Assembly: GCA_004293445.1 (NCBI GenBank)
Contig: RDYP01000004.1
Coordinates: 62,001 to 126,000 of the forward strand
DNA length: 64,000 bases
Source: Verrucomicrobiota bacterium
GTDB taxonomy: Bacteria > Verrucomicrobiota > Verrucomicrobiia > Verrucomicrobiales > Akkermansiaceae
Reading direction: 5' to 3'
This document shows, in pieces, positions 2,470-10,989 of this stretch. Numbering within the stretch: position 1 is the stretch's first letter; every line of letters starts with the position of its first letter. A program made the position numbers and the translations under genes. The notes beneath the pieces were generated by a model. That model made no database searches, had not been told where the DNA came from, and saw only the letters and a program-made list of their open reading frames with translations.

Positions 2470-3657
2470 TCAGCCCAGACTCGGCACTGGACGCACCGGA
2501 TCGGTCTCTGCCGCGTAATCGACGCCCTCCAAGCCGAAACCGAACAAACGGTAGAACTCTTTCTGATAACCTTCGAAGTCCGACACGTCGTCGATGGTCT
2601 CGGTCGAAACGCCCGCCCAGATCGACTCGATCTCCGCCTGCACTTCCTGCCGCATTTCCCAGTCATCGATCCGAATCCGACCTTTCTCATCCAGCTGAGG
2701 CCCGCCAACCGCACCGTAACGATCGGCGAAGAGACGATGAATCTGCTCGATGCAGCCCTCATGCAATCCCTTCTCTTTCATGATCTTGTAGAGAATGGAA
2801 ATGTAGAGCGGCACCACCGGAATCGCCGAACTCGCCTGGGTCACGAGCGCCTTGTTGACGGAGACTACCGCCGTGCCCTCACCAAAAGCCGCATTCATCT
2901 CGCTCGCCGTTTGCTCCAAGTGCAGCTTCGCCCGGCCGATCGTCCCGTCGGTGTAGATCGCCCAGGTCAGCTCGGGCCCGATGTAGGAATACGCCACCGT
3001 CTTGAAGCCGTCCGCCAGCACACCGGCGGCCTTCATCGCATCGATCCAAAGCTTCCAGTCCTCGCCGCCCATCACCTTCACGGTCTGGGCGATCTCATCC
3101 TCGTTCGCAGGCTCGATGGTGACGGTCTCGATCTCCTTCTTGTCCGTGTTGAGGTTCTTGTTGGTGTAGGTCTCGCCGGTCGGCTTGAGCACGGACTTGT
3201 AAACCTCGCCCGTCACCGGATCGGTCCGCCGCGGCGAGGCCAGGCTGTAAATGACCATGTCCACCTGGCCGAGGTCCGCCTTAATGGCTTCGATGACCTG
3301 CGTCTTCATCTCGGTCGAAAAGGCATCCCCATTGAAGCTCTTCGCATAGAGACCCTCCTTTGCCGCCGCAGTCTCGAAGGCAGCGGAGTTGTACCAACCC
3401 GCCGTGGCAGTCTTACCCTCGGTACCCTCGCGCTCGAAAAACACACCGATCGTTGACGCTCCGCCCCCGAAAGCGGGAACGATCCTCGAGGCCAAGCCGT
3501 AACCGGTGGAAGAACCGACGACCAAGACCCGCTTCGGACAATTCACCAGCGCGGGCTTCGACTTCACGTAGTCGATCTGCTCCTGAACATGGGCGGCACA
3601 ACCTTCGGGATGAGCAGTCGTGCAAATGAATCCGCGGATTTTCGGGGAAATGATCAT
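2470..3657 (-). CDS. fabV: Enoyl-ACP/trans-2-enoyl-CoA reductase, FabV type
   Basis: The 395-residue protein reduces trans-2-enoyl-ACP or -CoA with NADH, the last step of the fatty acid elongation cycle. It starts with the typical MIISPKIRGFICTTAHPEGC, then has the nucleotide-binding KRVLVVGSSTGYGLASRI. The FabV-specific catalytic Y-x8-K motif is seen as YTDGTIGRAK. Length fits the family (about 400). An in-frame extension up to 3801 overlaps mtfA and is rejected. It lies 94 nt after mtfA in the same direction. FabV enzymes are known to resist triclosan. No other enoyl reductase gene is present in this window. Confidence 0.95.
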   Translation of the reverse strand: MIISPKIRGFICTTAHPEGCAAHVQEQIDYVKSKPALVNCPKRVLVVGSSTGYGLASRIVPAFGGGASTIGVFFEREGTEGKTATAGWYNSAAFETAAAKEGLYAKSFNGDAFSTEMKTQVIEAIKADLGQVDMVIYSLASPRRTDPVTGEVYKSVLKPTGETYTNKNLNTDKKEIETVTIEPANEDEIAQTVKVMGGEDWKLWIDAMKAAGVLADGFKTVAYSYIGPELTWAIYTDGTIGRAKLHLEQTASEMNAAFGEGTAVVSVNKALVTQASSAIPVVPLYISILYKIMKEKGLHEGCIEQIHRLFADRYGAVGGPQLDEKGRIRIDDWEMRQEVQAEIESIWAGVSTETIDDVSDFEGYQKEFYRLFGFGLEGVDYAAETDPVRPVPSLG

Positions 3658-6331: not shown

Positions 6332-6604
6332 ATGGAGCTCGACCTCATCGACGTCCACTTCGACCTGAAGTCCACCAAACCCCGCGAGCTGGAAGAAGCT
6401 CTTGAGGATCCCTTCGGCCTGCGACTGCTCCCCGACCGCGAGTCCGGGGAAACCCGCTTCTATGCCCTCGGCCGCACCGTCGCCGACCGCTATCTTTTCA
6501 TCTGCTTCTGGACCGATGGCCGAAAGACCCGGGTCATCGCCGCCCGCCCGATGAGCGAGGGTGAACAACGATTCTACGAACGAAAATACGCCGAGTTCAA
6601 ATGA
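6332..6604 (+). CDS. BrnT family toxin-like protein
   Basis: The 90-residue protein matches the BrnT (DUF497) ribonuclease toxin fold over its second half: a LEDPFGLRLLPD stretch, then ETRFYALGRT, a hydrophobic strand (RYLFICFWTD), and the end TRVIAARPMSEGEQRFYE. The usual N-terminal FEWDxxKxxxNxxKH segment is replaced by MELDLIDVHFDLKSTKPRE, so the N-terminus has diverged and catalytic competence is uncertain. Toxins of this family cleave RNA and are neutralised by a downstream antitoxin. Here the next gene overlaps by 4 nt (ATGA), the standard toxin-first arrangement. Confidence 0.75.
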   Translation: MELDLIDVHFDLKSTKPRELEEALEDPFGLRLLPDRESGETRFYALGRTVADRYLFICFWTDGRKTRVIAARPMSEGEQRFYERKYAEFK

Positions 6605-6885
6605 GCGAGCCCATGCAACCCATCGCCCGCTGGTCGGATATCCCAGCCTTCGAAGACGAAGAAGCGGAGGCCCGCTTCTGGGAAACCCACGAATTGGAAG
6701 CCCGCCTCATGGCAGGATCGATTCACGAGCCCGATTCCCGCGAATCCACCACCATCACCCTGCGCTTCGACCCGCGTATGCTCTCGCGCATCAAACGCAT
6801 CGCCCGCTCCCGCTTCCTCAACTATCAGTCGATGATGAAGCAATGGCTGGCCGAACGCCTTGAGGACGAACTGCGGAAGCAATAA
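6601..6885 (+). CDS. CopG/BrnA-type ribbon-helix-helix antitoxin
   Basis: The 94-residue protein begins with a typical CopG-antitoxin N-terminus (RWSDIPAFEDEEAEARFWETH), an acidic toxin-binding region. It ends in a ribbon-helix-helix DNA-binding domain (STTITLRFDPRMLSRIKRIA, then NYQSMMKQWLAERLEDEL). It overlaps the BrnT-like gene by 4 nt. By analogy with brnTA, the antitoxin should neutralise the toxin and repress the shared promoter in the 6129-6331 gap, which also serves hisA in the other direction. That regulation is inferred, not seen. Confidence 0.82.
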   Translation: MSEPMQPIARWSDIPAFEDEEAEARFWETHELEARLMAGSIHEPDSRESTTITLRFDPRMLSRIKRIARSRFLNYQSMMKQWLAERLEDELRKQ

Positions 6886-6900
6886 CCGGCCTCCACCCCG

Positions 6901-7290
6901 ATGCGACGCCTGATCCGCCACCCCGCAGCGTGGCTCGCAGCCTTCATGCTCTGGTTCGCCACCCTCTGGTGGCTCTCCTCGCGCGTCGCCCACTTCCCGC
7001 CCGCGCTCGATTTCCGACTGAGCGATAAGCTCCTCCACTTCGGCTATTTCTTCGCCGGAGGCATCCTGCTCGCCGCCTTCCTCTACCGCCGCCGCCCCCA
7101 GCAGGCCGATTGGCGAAAGATCATTCTTTTCGCCACTACCATCGTCGCCCTCACCGGCGCCCTCGACGAATGGCATCAGTCCAAGGTCCCAGGCCGCAGT
7201 GGGAACGATCCCGGCGACTTCTCCGCCGACCTCCTCGGCGCGCTCTCCGGCACCCTCGCCTTGCGTTTCGCACGACGCCTCATCGACTGA
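6901..7290 (+). CDS. VanZ family membrane protein
   Basis: The 129-residue protein has about four membrane segments and the VanZ-like hallmarks: SDKLLHFGYFFAGG after the first segment, and ALDEWHQSKVPGRSGNDPGDFSADLLGA before the last. VanZ-like proteins are common small membrane proteins; VanZ itself contributes to teicoplanin resistance but most relatives have no assigned role. It begins 15 nt after the antitoxin gene, possibly read from the same transcript. Its end overlaps the convergent gene 7280-7837 by 11 bp. Confidence 0.85.
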   Translation: MRRLIRHPAAWLAAFMLWFATLWWLSSRVAHFPPALDFRLSDKLLHFGYFFAGGILLAAFLYRRRPQQADWRKIILFATTIVALTGALDEWHQSKVPGRSGNDPGDFSADLLGALSGTLALRFARRLID

Positions 7291-7837
7291 CACGGTCCCG
7301 CCGAACAGATCGTCCTTCCCGAAACGCAGCCCACGCGATCAACAAAATCCCCATCGGCTCGAGCGCCCGACTCAGCTCCCATCCCTTCGGCAAGGATTGG
7401 AAAAACGCGTCGATGTGGTGAAACGAGGCCGCCCGCGCCACGACGAAGGCCAGCAAAAATAACAGGCCCAATGCCAAAAGTTTGTGGCTGCGGACGAAGG
7501 CCTGAAAGCGCCACAAAAACCACAGCCCCGACACCAGCGACCCGACGAGCAGGCCGATGACGAACCCCTTCTGAAATTCCCGCCGCCGCTCATACCAACC
7601 GCCGAGCTGCGACCATTCCCGACCGAGCTCCGTCAGCAGCGATTGCAAATCGATCTGCTTGTTGACGCAAAGCGCAGCCAACAGCAAAGCAACCACCAAC
7701 CAGATCTTCTCCCGACACCGCGACCACGCGCGCACCACCAGCAGGAGGGCCAGCGCATACGCCCCCACAGTGATCCAGCCGATCAGACCGGGATCGCCGA
7801 CCTCAAGCCTCCACTTGATCATGAGCAAAAGATTCAT
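7280..7837 (-). CDS. Multi-pass membrane protein of unknown function
   Basis: I do not recognise a named family. The protein has about 185 residues and five predicted membrane segments, with a conserved-looking loop NKQIDLQSLLTELGREWSQ after the second and a short acidic/aromatic loop ASFHHIDAFFQ late in the sequence. The start at 7837 (MNLLLMIKWRLEV) has a weak GGAAGG about 12 nt upstream; an earlier in-frame ATG-like start at 7891 would add an unconvincing leader. The gene converges on the VanZ-like gene with an 11 bp overlap. Confidence 0.65.
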   Translation of the reverse strand: MNLLLMIKWRLEVGDPGLIGWITVGAYALALLLVVRAWSRCREKIWLVVALLLAALCVNKQIDLQSLLTELGREWSQLGGWYERRREFQKGFVIGLLVGSLVSGLWFLWRFQAFVRSHKLLALGLLFLLAFVVARAASFHHIDAFFQSLPKGWELSRALEPMGILLIAWAAFREGRSVRRDRVSR

Positions 7838-8493
7838 AGCGGCGGGAAACCTTCCGCGGCAAGAGCTGCCGCACACAACTTGCCCTAGCAACTAAGCGAA
7901 ACCCATTCGCCCGGCCATCCGAAAAGATCGCACCACGCAGCGGACAAAACCTGCAAAAAACCGTCGCCCGAAAACGACGCAACGCGCCGGAGCCTCCAGC
8001 CCCGGCGCGTTGAGACACTACAACTACTGAACACATCGAAAACATCGGGTCCGACGCCCGCTCCAGCCCCCCGGCTGGATGACGTCATCCCCTTGCATGC
8101 GGCCCTGTGACAGACGATGCCCGCTGTCCTCAACCGGAACGACGGTCCCCCGACCTCGCTCCGTTGTGCGTGAGACCACCATGGCAACCGTTCCCCCCGT
8201 CCAGCGGGCCGAAGATCGGAAATGGATCGGCACCGGGGAGCTTTCGCCACCACGCGGTGCCACGAGCCGCACACCCTCCCCATCCCCGATCGTCCCGCGA
8301 ACACCCCCCGGAACCCGCTTGCCGGTCGGAGAGATTGGGAAGTGGTGGAAGCTCGTCATCACTACCCCAATCGCAGACGACCTGAGCTGATTTCCAAATT
8401 TTGCTGAAAATTTTCAAATCGGAATCATCCACAGATGCCGATCCTCCGGATTTCAGTGATACATGAGGCCCGCCATTGCGAATCAGAGGGCAC
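7838..8493. other. Gene-free stretch with many inverted repeats
   Basis: No reading frame here looks protein-coding: frames on both strands have skewed, low-complexity composition and no recognisable domains. Several clean inverted repeats are visible, among them 7981-7990/8002-8011 (10 bp, loop 11), 8063-8068/8073-8078, the 14 bp palindrome 8077-8090, 8229-8235/8255-8261 and 8333-8339/8366-8372. An AT-rich run lies at 8394-8420. The pattern suits a structured RNA read on the minus strand and ending at the 7981-8011 hairpin, but this is inference. Confidence 0.5.
7981..8011 (-). terminator. Strong hairpin, possible terminator
   Basis: A perfect 10 bp inverted repeat (AACGCGCCGG and its complement) encloses an 11 nt loop. 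On the minus strand it is followed within about 5 nt by CGTTTTC, a short T-run, so it could end a transcript coming from the structured region or from the Hsp20-like gene about 480 nt upstream. On the plus strand no T-run follows. Confidence 0.45.
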
Positions 8494-9462
8494 CTATTTG
8501 GCCTTCGGCAGCGTTACGATCACAAGCCCCTCTTTCCGCTCAATCTTCAGCTGGGCGGCATCGACCGGCCCGGGGAGATCGATGATCTGAACAAACTCCG
8601 ACTTTCTCCGCCAGACCTGCCCCTCGCCGTTTCGCTCGCTGCTATCCTCGGAGGCGGCCACGATTCTCAACCGCCCATTCTCCACCATCACCTTGGCATT
8701 TTCTGCATTCCGCTCCGGCAAATAAGCGCGGACCACGTAGCTCCCGGCCTCCTCTTTCAAATCGACCGCCGCCCCGAAACGAGCCCGATCGAAGAATTCA
8801 CTCGGTCCCGGGAGATCATCCCATTCTTCAAAAGCCTGCTCGCACATCCGATCCATCTCCCGCCGCATCTGCTCCATCCGACCGAGAACCAAGCGATCCC
8901 ATGGCTCCCCCACCCGTCCACCCGACGATGGCGGGGCGCTTGCCTCCTTCGGTGACGACTCCACCACCCCCGCCGCCTTGGGCAAGTCGACCACGATCAC
9001 ATGCGTCTCCGCCCGCCGCCGAACCAAGGGCTTCGCATCGGGCGCGATGCCTTCCAGCACGATCTTCTGCTCATAACTCGCAAGCTTTCCCTCAGCGGGC
9101 GCGGTGATCCGTAAGGTCTTTCCTTCCTCGAAGACGACCTCCACCTTCCCGACATCGCGCCCCGGCATGTGCGCCCTGAGCGTGTAGCCATCATGGCGCT
9201 CTCTCAAATCCACGGACGCGATCGCCAGCGAATCCACCGCAGCCGCCTTGCCCGCGACCGACTCGCGAAGCTCGTGCCACTGCTCATGGAAACGGCGGGT
9301 CATCCGGTCATGCAAATCCCGCGATTTCTCGGCAATGCGCAGCCGTCGATCCTCCGTTTCATCCGCGACCGCGACTTGGAGAACTCCGACCAGCAGGAGC
9401 CAAACCGCCACGACGACGTGACTCATCCGAACGACATTCATGACGATGATGGACGTTTTCAT
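8494..9462 (-). CDS. Exported protein with two alpha-crystallin (Hsp20) domains
   Basis: The 322-residue protein has an N-terminal hydrophobic signal (WLLLVGVLQVAVA, cleavage likely near residue 33), then a charged helix, then two Hsp20-like domains at about 82-162 and 229-320. Each begins with a DLRE/DLKE strand followed by YTLRAHMPG or YVVRAYLPE and ends with a VDLPK or VTLPK strand. A linker rich in Met and Arg (RMEQMRREMDRMCEQAFEEW) separates them. Hsp20 proteins hold unfolded clients without ATP. Ordinary members are cytoplasmic, have one such domain and no signal peptide, so a periplasmic holdase is the inferred role. No chaperone partner is adjacent. Confidence 0.82.
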   Translation of the reverse strand: MKTSIIVMNVVRMSHVVVAVWLLLVGVLQVAVADETEDRRLRIAEKSRDLHDRMTRRFHEQWHELRESVAGKAAAVDSLAIASVDLRERHDGYTLRAHMPGRDVGKVEVVFEEGKTLRITAPAEGKLASYEQKIVLEGIAPDAKPLVRRRAETHVIVVDLPKAAGVVESSPKEASAPPSSGGRVGEPWDRLVLGRMEQMRREMDRMCEQAFEEWDDLPGPSEFFDRARFGAAVDLKEEAGSYVVRAYLPERNAENAKVMVENGRLRIVAASEDSSERNGEGQVWRRKSEFVQIIDLPGPVDAAQLKIERKEGLVIVTLPKAK

Positions 9463-9786: not shown

Positions 9787-10989
9787 TTGAAGATCCTGAT
9801 CCACGACTACGCCGGCCATGCTTTCCCCACCTCGCTCAGCCGCGCGCTGGCGGCGCGGGGGCACGACGTCGTCCACGCCTACGCCAGTTGCTTGCAAACG
9901 CCGCGCGGCGACCTCCAGCACCGCCCGGGCGATGCGGAAAACTTGGAATTCCATGAATTCCCGATGGATCCGAATTACCCGCGCTTCAAATACGCCTTTC
10001 GCCGCCGCCGCGGCATGGAAATTCGCTATGGCTCCGTGGCGGCCGACTTCATCCGCCAGTGGAGGCCCGATGCAGTCCTCTCCGGCAACACCCCCACCGA
10101 ACCGCAAGAGGCGATCAGTCGCGCAACGACCGAAAGCGGTGGCCGCTTCTACTTCTGGGTCCAGGACTTCTACAGTCTCGCTGTCGACAAACTGCTTCGG
10201 AAAAAGCTCCCGATCGCCGGAGGCTTCATCGGCGCCTGGTATCGCCTGCTGGACTCCCGTCAATTTCAGAGAAGCAGCGGCATCATCGCCATCAGCGAGG
10301 ACTTTACCGACACCCTGAGCCACGAGTTCGGCGTGGACGCGACACGGGTCTCCGTCATCCCCAACTGGGCGGTGATCGAAAAACTTCCCACCCTGCCGAA
10401 AGACAACGAATGGGCGCGGCAACACGCGCTGCACGACAAATTCGTCTTCCTGTACTCCGGCACCCTCGGCATGAAGCACAACCCGGCCTTGCTGCTGGAG
10501 CTCGCCAAGCACTTCCGCGACCACTCCTCCATCGAGGTGGTCGTCGTTTCCGAAGGCATCGGTGCCGACTGGCTGCGCCGCGAAGCCGCCACCGCAGGAC
10601 TGCGGCAACTGCGAGTCCTCCCCTACCAAGCCTTCAGCCAATTTCCAGCCGTGCTCGCATCCGGCGACGTCCTGATCGGCATTCTGGAAGAGGATGCCGC
10701 CACCTTCTCAGTGCCCTCGAAGACCCTCAGTTATCTCTGCGCCGCCCGCCCCTTGCTGCTCGCCGTGCCCGAGCAAAACCTCGCCGCCCGCATCACCCGC
10801 TCGCAAGCTGCGGGCATCACCGTGAGCCCGAATGATCTGCCGTCCTTTCTAGCAGCTGCCGAGCGACTTCACGCGTCCCCGGCGGAATGCTCCGCACACG
10901 CCGCCAGGGCTCGGGCCTATGCGGAGGCACACTTCCCCATCGAGCACATCGCCGCGGCTTTCGAGAACATACTCGTCGGCCAGCACTGA
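9787..10989 (+). CDS. Glycosyltransferase family 4-like (WcaI-like)
   Basis: The 400-residue cytoplasmic GT-B enzyme starts with MKILIHDYAGHAFPTSLSRALAARG, the N-terminal Rossmann strand and loop of GT4 enzymes. A mid-protein VSVIPNWAVIEK linker is followed by the C-terminal domain with FVFLYSGTLGMKHNP and the donor-site region FSVPSKTLSYLCAARPLL. The start codon is TTG, as no ATG precedes the conserved strand. It is the first of four genes that look like a surface-polysaccharide operon. The donor sugar and acceptor cannot be deduced. Confidence 0.88.
   Translation: MKILIHDYAGHAFPTSLSRALAARGHDVVHAYASCLQTPRGDLQHRPGDAENLEFHEFPMDPNYPRFKYAFRRRRGMEIRYGSVAADFIRQWRPDAVLSGNTPTEPQEAISRATTESGGRFYFWVQDFYSLAVDKLLRKKLPIAGGFIGAWYRLLDSRQFQRSSGIIAISEDFTDTLSHEFGVDATRVSVIPNWAVIEKLPTLPKDNEWARQHALHDKFVFLYSGTLGMKHNPALLLELAKHFRDHSSIEVVVVSEGIGADWLRREAATAGLRQLRVLPYQAFSQFPAVLASGDVLIGILEEDAATFSVPSKTLSYLCAARPLLLAVPEQNLAARITRSQAAGITVSPNDLPSFLAAAERLHASPAECSAHAARARAYAEAHFPIEHIAAAFENILVGQH

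Follow-up and report, generated by a model that had tools for sequence, protein, structure and literature searches.

Why would a bacterium build a small heat-shock protein (sHsp) that carries two alpha-crystallin domains (ACDs) and a signal peptide in a single chain? The sHsps of bacteria are usually portrayed as working in the cytosol alongside the ATP-driven Hsp70/ClpB machines. An earlier note on the window (the whole 64,000-nucleotide stretch of Verrucomicrobiota DNA analysed here) had predicted such a protein from one of its genes. We examined the domains of this protein, its targeting, its relatives and its gene neighbourhood. Its overall architecture, signal, arm1-D1, linker, arm2-D2, is as follows.

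8494..9462, minus strand: whole gene for the tandem sHsp, predicted to be exported; ATG start, TAG stop, 322 aa
9364..9462, minus strand: predicted signal peptide, residues 1-33; from hydropathy against Hsp20 controls, cleavage site by eye
9238..9354, minus strand: first N-terminal arm helix, residues 37-75; AlphaFold helices 37-67 and 69-75, aligned with the second arm (hhalign)
8977..9231, minus strand: D1, the first ACD, residues 78-162; profile comparison and modelled fold
9076..9105, minus strand: shortened beta5-beta7 loop of D1, residues 120-129; 10 residues, into which beta6 does not fit
8905..8976, minus strand: Pro/Ser-rich linker of low model confidence, residues 163-186; pLDDT below 50 at 168-184
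8824..8904, minus strand: second N-terminal arm (the Met-rich linker helix), residues 187-213; AlphaFold helix, matching the arm of single-ACD exported Hsp20s
8500..8787, minus strand: D2, the second ACD, residues 226-321; Pfam HSP20, PDB sequence matches and fold, the chain ending one residue later
8596..8661, minus strand: beta5-beta7 loop of D2, residues 268-289; 22 residues, near normal length, low model confidence

Two alpha-crystallin domains in one conserved reading frame

Pfam recognised D2 as HSP20 over residues 235-321, with 37.8 bits where 20.8 are required, and the second half of the protein aligned with plant, yeast and bacterial sHsps in a PDB sequence search (best E 5.7e-6). D1 stayed under every Pfam cut-off, its best match being ArsA_HSP20 over residues 91-121 (17.6 against 22.5 bits), and an NCBIfam search of the tandem protein returned sHsp matches that were all below cut-off. 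The reading frame is intact in 13 other tandem proteins, which share 33-43% identity with the window protein. Both halves are constrained, since dN/dS was 0.09-0.21 in five of six half-pairs, none of which contained the window gene; the sixth gave no usable dS. The gene encodes a chain with two ACD-type domains in a conserved open reading frame.

Whole-chain AlphaFold modelling from nine sequences gave a pTM of 0.73 and a mean pLDDT of 72.4, the other four of the five models being poorer (mean pLDDT 58-64). In 10-residue blocks, pLDDT was 83-91 across most of D1 and 80-90 across D2, except for the loop of the latter, where it fell to 47-57 at residues 271-290. The modelled D2 also resembled sHsp structures. 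When D1 was modelled by itself (mean pLDDT 75.8, pTM 0.56), its best match among sHsp crystal structures reached Z 12.0 (1gme_D, 80 residues, 1.8 A), and the 37 top rows of the search were all sHsps or crystallins; Foldseek on the same model agreed with an sHsp fold at modest E-values (best 8e-5). The first CS domain appeared at rank 38 (2xcm_C, Z 9.7). CS rows scored Z 9.4-9.7 (SGT1 9.7, PIH1D1 9.5) against up to 12.0 for sHsps, which are modest margins, and with 37 sHsp or crystallin rows ranked above it a CS-type domain is the less well supported assignment. The claim that the first repeat is Hsp20-like is thus supported: judged by its modelled fold, D1 is best assigned as an ACD despite its sub-cut-off Pfam score.

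Profile comparisons, for which we chose the rows in each set, matched D1 to D2 (14 against 14 sequences) with a score of 148 and an E-value of 1.6e-25, helix and domain aligning together. D1 scored 112 against 14 exported single-ACD Hsp20s (E 5.5e-18) and 70 against 12 cytosolic Hsp20s (E 1.9e-11, prob 97.3). An N-terminal arm is present ahead of each ACD, as helices 37-67 and 187-213, both aligned with Hsp20 arms. Because the match between D1 and D2 includes the helix preceding each, residues 187-213 are, by alignment, the arm of a second arm-plus-ACD unit, with helix 37-67 taking the same place ahead of D1. The earlier note suggested that the Met-rich linker helix may mediate oligomerisation; we reread it as the N-terminal arm of the second unit, in a chain from which the usual C-terminal oligomerisation tail is missing.

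An N-terminal signal predicts export

The protein begins MKTSIIVMNVVRMSH-VVVAVWLLLVGV-LQVAVA/DETE (the slash marks a cleavage site placed by eye), with K and R first; a markedly hydrophobic core and an A-x-A site follow. Its 12-residue hydropathy peak is 3.09 at residues 16-27, preceded by a stretch that holds K and R and no acidic residue; simple hydropathy thus finds an N-terminal signal of the n/h/c type with its h-region at 16-27. All 17 tandem rows, which represent 15 distinct proteins (L072 included) and two duplicates, were hydrophobic at the N-terminus, with peaks of 1.89-3.09. Among 30 cytosolic Hsp20 controls, which we picked from the Hsp20 matches (116 distinct proteins in all), one reached 1.9 (L061, 2.13), and its start looks called too far upstream; the next was at 1.75. 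The separation is good and not perfect, because the lowest tandem protein (L043) lies at 1.89. From hydropathy, the tandem protein is likely to be exported by Sec. The prediction of two ACDs together with an export signal in a single chain is thereby supported, and the combination recurs in other Verrucomicrobiota. Of the two results that would have refuted the earlier note, a signal score near zero and a first repeat with no structural match to an ACD, neither turned up.

Whether the signal is removed bears on where the protein would work. An uncleaved N-terminus could anchor both ACDs to the inner membrane on its outer side, where they would guard proteins leaving Sec. Five single-ACD relatives (L074, L075, L078, L079 and L082) do carry a long hydrophobic segment with no evident cleavage site, and the two alternatives are least clearly separated for the window copy, whose h-region of 3.09 is the strongest of the tandem set. 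However, the tandem h-regions are weaker as a rule, and in several of the proteins a small-x-small site stands directly before D/E-rich sequence (AVA/DETE, VFA/DETK, LAA/EESK, GLA/EDPK). We consider membrane tethering unlikely, and prefer a cleaved protein that is soluble in the periplasm.

D1 has lost the swap loop and the chain lacks the tail

Bacterial ACDs are described as dimerising by exchange of beta6 between partners, and animal (metazoan) sHsps as having no distinct beta6, in a published paper (PMC11855743). The beta5-beta7 segment, which would hold this strand, measured 10 residues in all 15 D1s, against 19-24 in the 15 D2s, 24-26 in 19 exported single-ACD proteins and 20-26 in 30 cytosolic ACDs. 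D1 thus has no loop for a dimer swap, and D2 resembles a swapping domain in loop length only. At the other end, I-x-I occurs within the last 12 residues of all 30 cytosolic Hsp20s. We measured tails as the residues after the last strand; a plain I-x-I pattern over the last 9 residues also matches the last beta strand. So measured in 14 tandem chains, with L072 among them and L044 excluded, 12 end 1-4 residues past the last strand and two have tails of 16-17 residues without I-x-I; a tail carrying a C-terminal I/V-x-I/V was found in none of the 14. This motif is given as present in 90% of sHsps in another paper (PMC2850924). As it is not strictly defining, we treat its loss as a variant and not as exclusion from the sHsp family. 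D1, then, no longer has the loop for swapping beta6, and the chain is without a C-terminal I-x-I tail, by which ordinary sHsps assemble into cages.

With a loop in D2 and none in D1, beta6 could be swapped one way only, from D2 to D1. Because D1 is without the loop and the chain without the tail, one-way swapping is suggested, and hence an intramolecular pseudo-dimer and small assemblies: D1 and D2 would probably pair one-sidedly within the chain, leaving the protein as a monomer or small oligomer.

The loss of the loop in all 15 copies might instead mean that D2 is the chaperone and D1 an adaptor that binds partners, as CS domains do when they attach to other chaperones; D1 alone is indeed also matched by the CS domains of SGT1 (Z 9.7) and PIH1D1 (Z 9.5). 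This division of labour appears rather improbable to us, since sHsp and crystallin structures fill the 37 rows above the first CS row, D1 matches D2 and Hsp20s by profile, and an arm helix still precedes D1 in 14 of 15 proteins, the exception being L072, where D1 starts right after the signal. Two chaperone units that pair with each other remain our preferred reading.

Distribution and origin of the tandem form

In the window's family, 42 of 195 genomes gave some match, and nine, the window's own included, gave a tandem match over both domains. One contig scan yielded 27 loci: seven tandem loci titled Chthoniobacterales, Chthoniobacter, Akkermansiaceae, Haloferula, Verrucomicrobia and Brevifollis, one second-domain fragment (L050), and 19 with single-domain proteins. 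L046 and L048 encode the same proteins as two genomes of the 195-genome survey. Orthologues occur in cultured relatives, Haloferula sp. BvORR071 (L046) and Brevifollis gellanilyticus (L049). A phylum sample of 387 genomes had a match in 101 at E 1e-8 and in three over the whole tandem model. By our own reading of their class, its best-scoring 30 loci comprised three tandem proteins, one diverged tandem, 17 single-ACD proteins with a hydrophobic N-terminus and nine cytosolic Hsp20s. With duplicates of other tandem rows (L046, L048, L070, L071) and fragments (L050, L012) dropped, we found 14 distinct tandem proteins in the Verrucomicrobiota, the window's included, or 15 with L072. The tandem architecture with a predicted export signal is thus present in other Verrucomicrobia. 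The earlier note was right that the tandem form is unusual, in that it is rare; export signals on Hsp20s proved more widespread than it supposed, as the 17 single-ACD proteins among those best 30 loci indicate. No plasmid-borne relative was found in PLSDB (tblastn, E 1e-5).

The diverged tandem of genome G311 (L072:1498-2298, minus strand) belongs to another family of the class and has a signal, MKKSHAFLVCLALSAWTLQA, and a reduced first part, in which the first ACD has no arm; its middle is Met/Gly-rich. A genome of the window's genus, G125, holds a second-domain fragment only (L012 / L041:6052-6672, 54% identity), whose frame breaks off, perhaps as a decayed or misassembled copy. At L044:5219-6523 (plus strand) the tandem reading frame continues into a tail that by eye resembles the last part of a type II/IV secretion ATPase; the contig is probably chimeric or the gene broken.

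Candidate exported or anchored single-ACD Hsp20s were found at L015, L073-L086, L088, L089 and L095 (L088 was used neither in the tree nor in counting loops, tails and neighbours), and, from or near Campylobacterota judging by their titles, at L051, L059, L100, L102 and L103. In the phylum of L051 (titled Sulfurospirillum), 43 of 150 genomes had a match at E 1e-25; of 30 loci taken from it, four encode proteins that open with a hydrophobic stretch (L099, the same locus as L051, and L100, L102 and L103), and 26 look cytosolic.

An ACD tree of 79 rows and 95 columns, a small number of columns for so many rows, separated D1, D2, exported singles and cytosolic proteins with three changes, the minimum possible. 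One branch (95/49) sets the 30 cytosolic rows apart from all others, D1 and D2 group together at 89/52, and D1 alone at 76/31. The exported singles do not make up a single clade (2 changes); they fall in an intermediate position, with the tandem domains on one side and the cytosolic rows on the other, and four of them (L080, L083, L084, L089) adjoin the cytosolic rows. The rival split, with D1 beside cytosolic proteins and D2 beside exported singles, gave AU p 0.083 and 0.045 from its two sides and is disfavoured. By profile, the closest relatives of D2 are single-ACD Hsp20s that carry an N-terminal signal or anchor: it scored 205 against 14 of these and 111 against 12 cytosolic Hsp20s. As the D1-D2 score exceeds the other D1 scores and the tree groups the two domains, the tandem is most simply read as a duplication of a whole arm-plus-ACD unit among exported Hsp20s.

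Two further topologies concern the exported singles themselves. A separate origin of the Campylobacterota proteins from their cytosolic neighbours was not rejected (AU p 0.28); an independent origin of the exported Hsp20s at L074-L076 from their cytosolic neighbours was rejected (AU p 1e-9). The tests therefore do not establish one common origin for the exported proteins of different phyla.

Gene neighbourhood and control

An ordinary hsp20 gene lies on the same strand within 1.2 kb of the tandem gene at seven of 14 loci (L006, L008, L009, L011, L043, L044, L049). The others (the window, L004, L005, L007, L010, L045, L047) have no such neighbour; the tandem gene of L047 starts 153 bases from the contig end. 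A Pfam HSP20 search of the genome to which the window belongs (G000, 3.35 Mb, 97% complete) found the tandem gene and one ordinary Hsp20, a 159-aa open frame on a different contig. Five of 19 exported single-ACD genes (L051, L074, L075, L076, L079) are each preceded by a pair of cytosolic hsp20 genes, making a row of three; five is a lower bound, since the flank at most of these 19 loci extends for only about 1-1.5 kb. The two cytosolic genes in each row differ from each other, and the rows come from four genomes of the window's phylum and a MAG titled Sulfurospirillum (L051). L076 also holds, on the opposite strand (2653-3393, minus), a second anchored Hsp20-like frame of 246 aa with a hydrophobic segment and an LPGPV motif.

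In G036 the cluster has genes for a serine recombinase and a DUF5681 protein nearby, and may therefore move. A small protein of 109-133 aa, alike by eye, is encoded next to the hsp20 and tandem genes in four genomes, of which two belong to the same genus as the window (L035:5409-5738, L037:5555-5956, L038:5260-5601 and L040:5437-5787, all minus strand); it had no Pfam match at E 0.01.

Around the window gene, a glycosyltransferase gene is divergent from it at 9787-10989, and a membrane-protein-like frame at 7280-7891 has no assignable family. Two overlapping small genes at 6332-6885 (plus strand) match the BrnT toxin (40.4 bits, cut-off 34.5) and a CopG-type antitoxin (41.8 bits, cut-off 28), and are likely a type II toxin-antitoxin pair. 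Upstream of the window gene, neither an RNA thermometer or other Rfam element (E up to 1) nor a sigma-70-like promoter was found, and the two terminator-like sites seen do not stand out from shuffled sequence (mean 1.2). With no hsp20 neighbour and no recognised upstream regulatory element, nothing local shows stress control of the window copy.

A constitutive role in building the envelope, like that of Skp or SurA and free of stress induction, would fit the window copy and L033, L034, L036, L039 and L045, none of which has another hsp20 in the stretch read. Yet half of the orthologues adjoin hsp20, two Skp/OmpH-type genes already exist in this genome, and the patchy presence of the tandem (nine of 195 genomes) speaks against an essential part in biogenesis. 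We rate such a housekeeping function as low as the adaptor role of D1, and continue to favour a stress holdase.

A candidate periplasmic holdase

Holdase activity in the periplasm is most likely, as predicted from family and targeting. The tandem protein would leave the cytoplasm through Sec and probably be soluble in the periplasm. Under heat or other envelope stress, its two Met-containing arms and its ACD surfaces would take up envelope proteins as they unfold and maintain them in solution until refolding or degradation. It is highly improbable that the protein is cytosolic and its hydrophobic start no targeting signal, given a hydrophobic N-terminus in 17 of 17 tandem rows and a peak of 1.9 or more in one of 30 cytosolic controls, itself a likely start-call error. 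We regard as reasonably probable the full reading, drawn from sequence, in which a Sec-exported, ATP-independent periplasmic holdase with two arm-plus-ACD units acts as a monomer or small-oligomer pseudo-dimer and not as a cage. The periplasmic holdase suggested in the earlier note is accordingly kept as the best-supported reading, argued from family and targeting; the note's further suggestion, that it protects surface proteins, was neither supported nor contradicted. This genome also encodes two Skp/OmpH-type proteins and several trypsin-like ones with an HtrA-type domain, which are possible partners.

The periplasm is not known to contain ATP, and exported sHsps would need to release clients without ATP-driven Hsp70/ClpB machines. 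With no beta6 swap in one domain and no I-x-I tail, the tandem form offers a natural test of whether a holdase needs a cage. More tentatively, and with somewhat less than even confidence, we propose that some bacteria have a second, extracytoplasmic sHsp system, made up of exported Hsp20s that are often encoded beside one or two cytosolic Hsp20s, so that the two compartments would be guarded jointly, of which the Verrucomicrobiota member is a cage-free single-chain pseudo-dimer with one ACD lacking the swap loop and a chain lacking the tail. The anti-clumping sHsps normally found inside the bacterial cell would then extend beyond the inner membrane, and relatives with export signals are fairly common.

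Comparison with known systems

The tandem protein shares an N-terminal arm and ACD with bacterial cytosolic Hsp20s of the IbpA type (PF00011), and its D2 passes the Pfam cut-off. All 30 cytosolic Hsp20s examined have one ACD, a beta6 loop and an I-x-I tail and no signal, whereas the tandem has two ACDs, a signal, a loop-less D1 and no tail. Exported single-ACD Hsp20s carry an N-terminal signal or anchor and an arm as in the tandem, and are by profile the closest ACD relatives of D2; they differ in having one ACD with a full loop, and 12 of 19 keep a tail of at least 13 residues with I-x-I. Skp, SurA, DegP/HtrA, HdeA and Spy share with the tandem protein the proposed compartment and ATP-independence, and have folds unrelated to the sHsp fold.

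Among the literature matches listed, mostly open-access and with preprints outside the scope, the text available describes no exported bacterial sHsp of the ACD type, and its two-ACD sHsps are animal proteins. In the available part of one review (PMC8144458), the words 'Hsp20' and 'crystallin' do not occur, IbpA and IbpB are named as sHsps, and one cited title terms HdeA a small heat shock protein. Two ACDs per chain, as in the tandem, are described in the accessible text for Tsp36 of Taenia saginata (2bol) and for earthworm sHsps (PMC13226371); the term 'signal peptide' is absent from the main text of the earthworm paper. Foldseek aligned the whole tandem model with Tsp36 over 373 columns, loosely (rmsd 22 A, E 4e-4). 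These double-ACD proteins are animal, whereas the bacterial tandem appears to have duplicated the arm as well, and its D2 is nearest by profile to bacterial exported Hsp20s.
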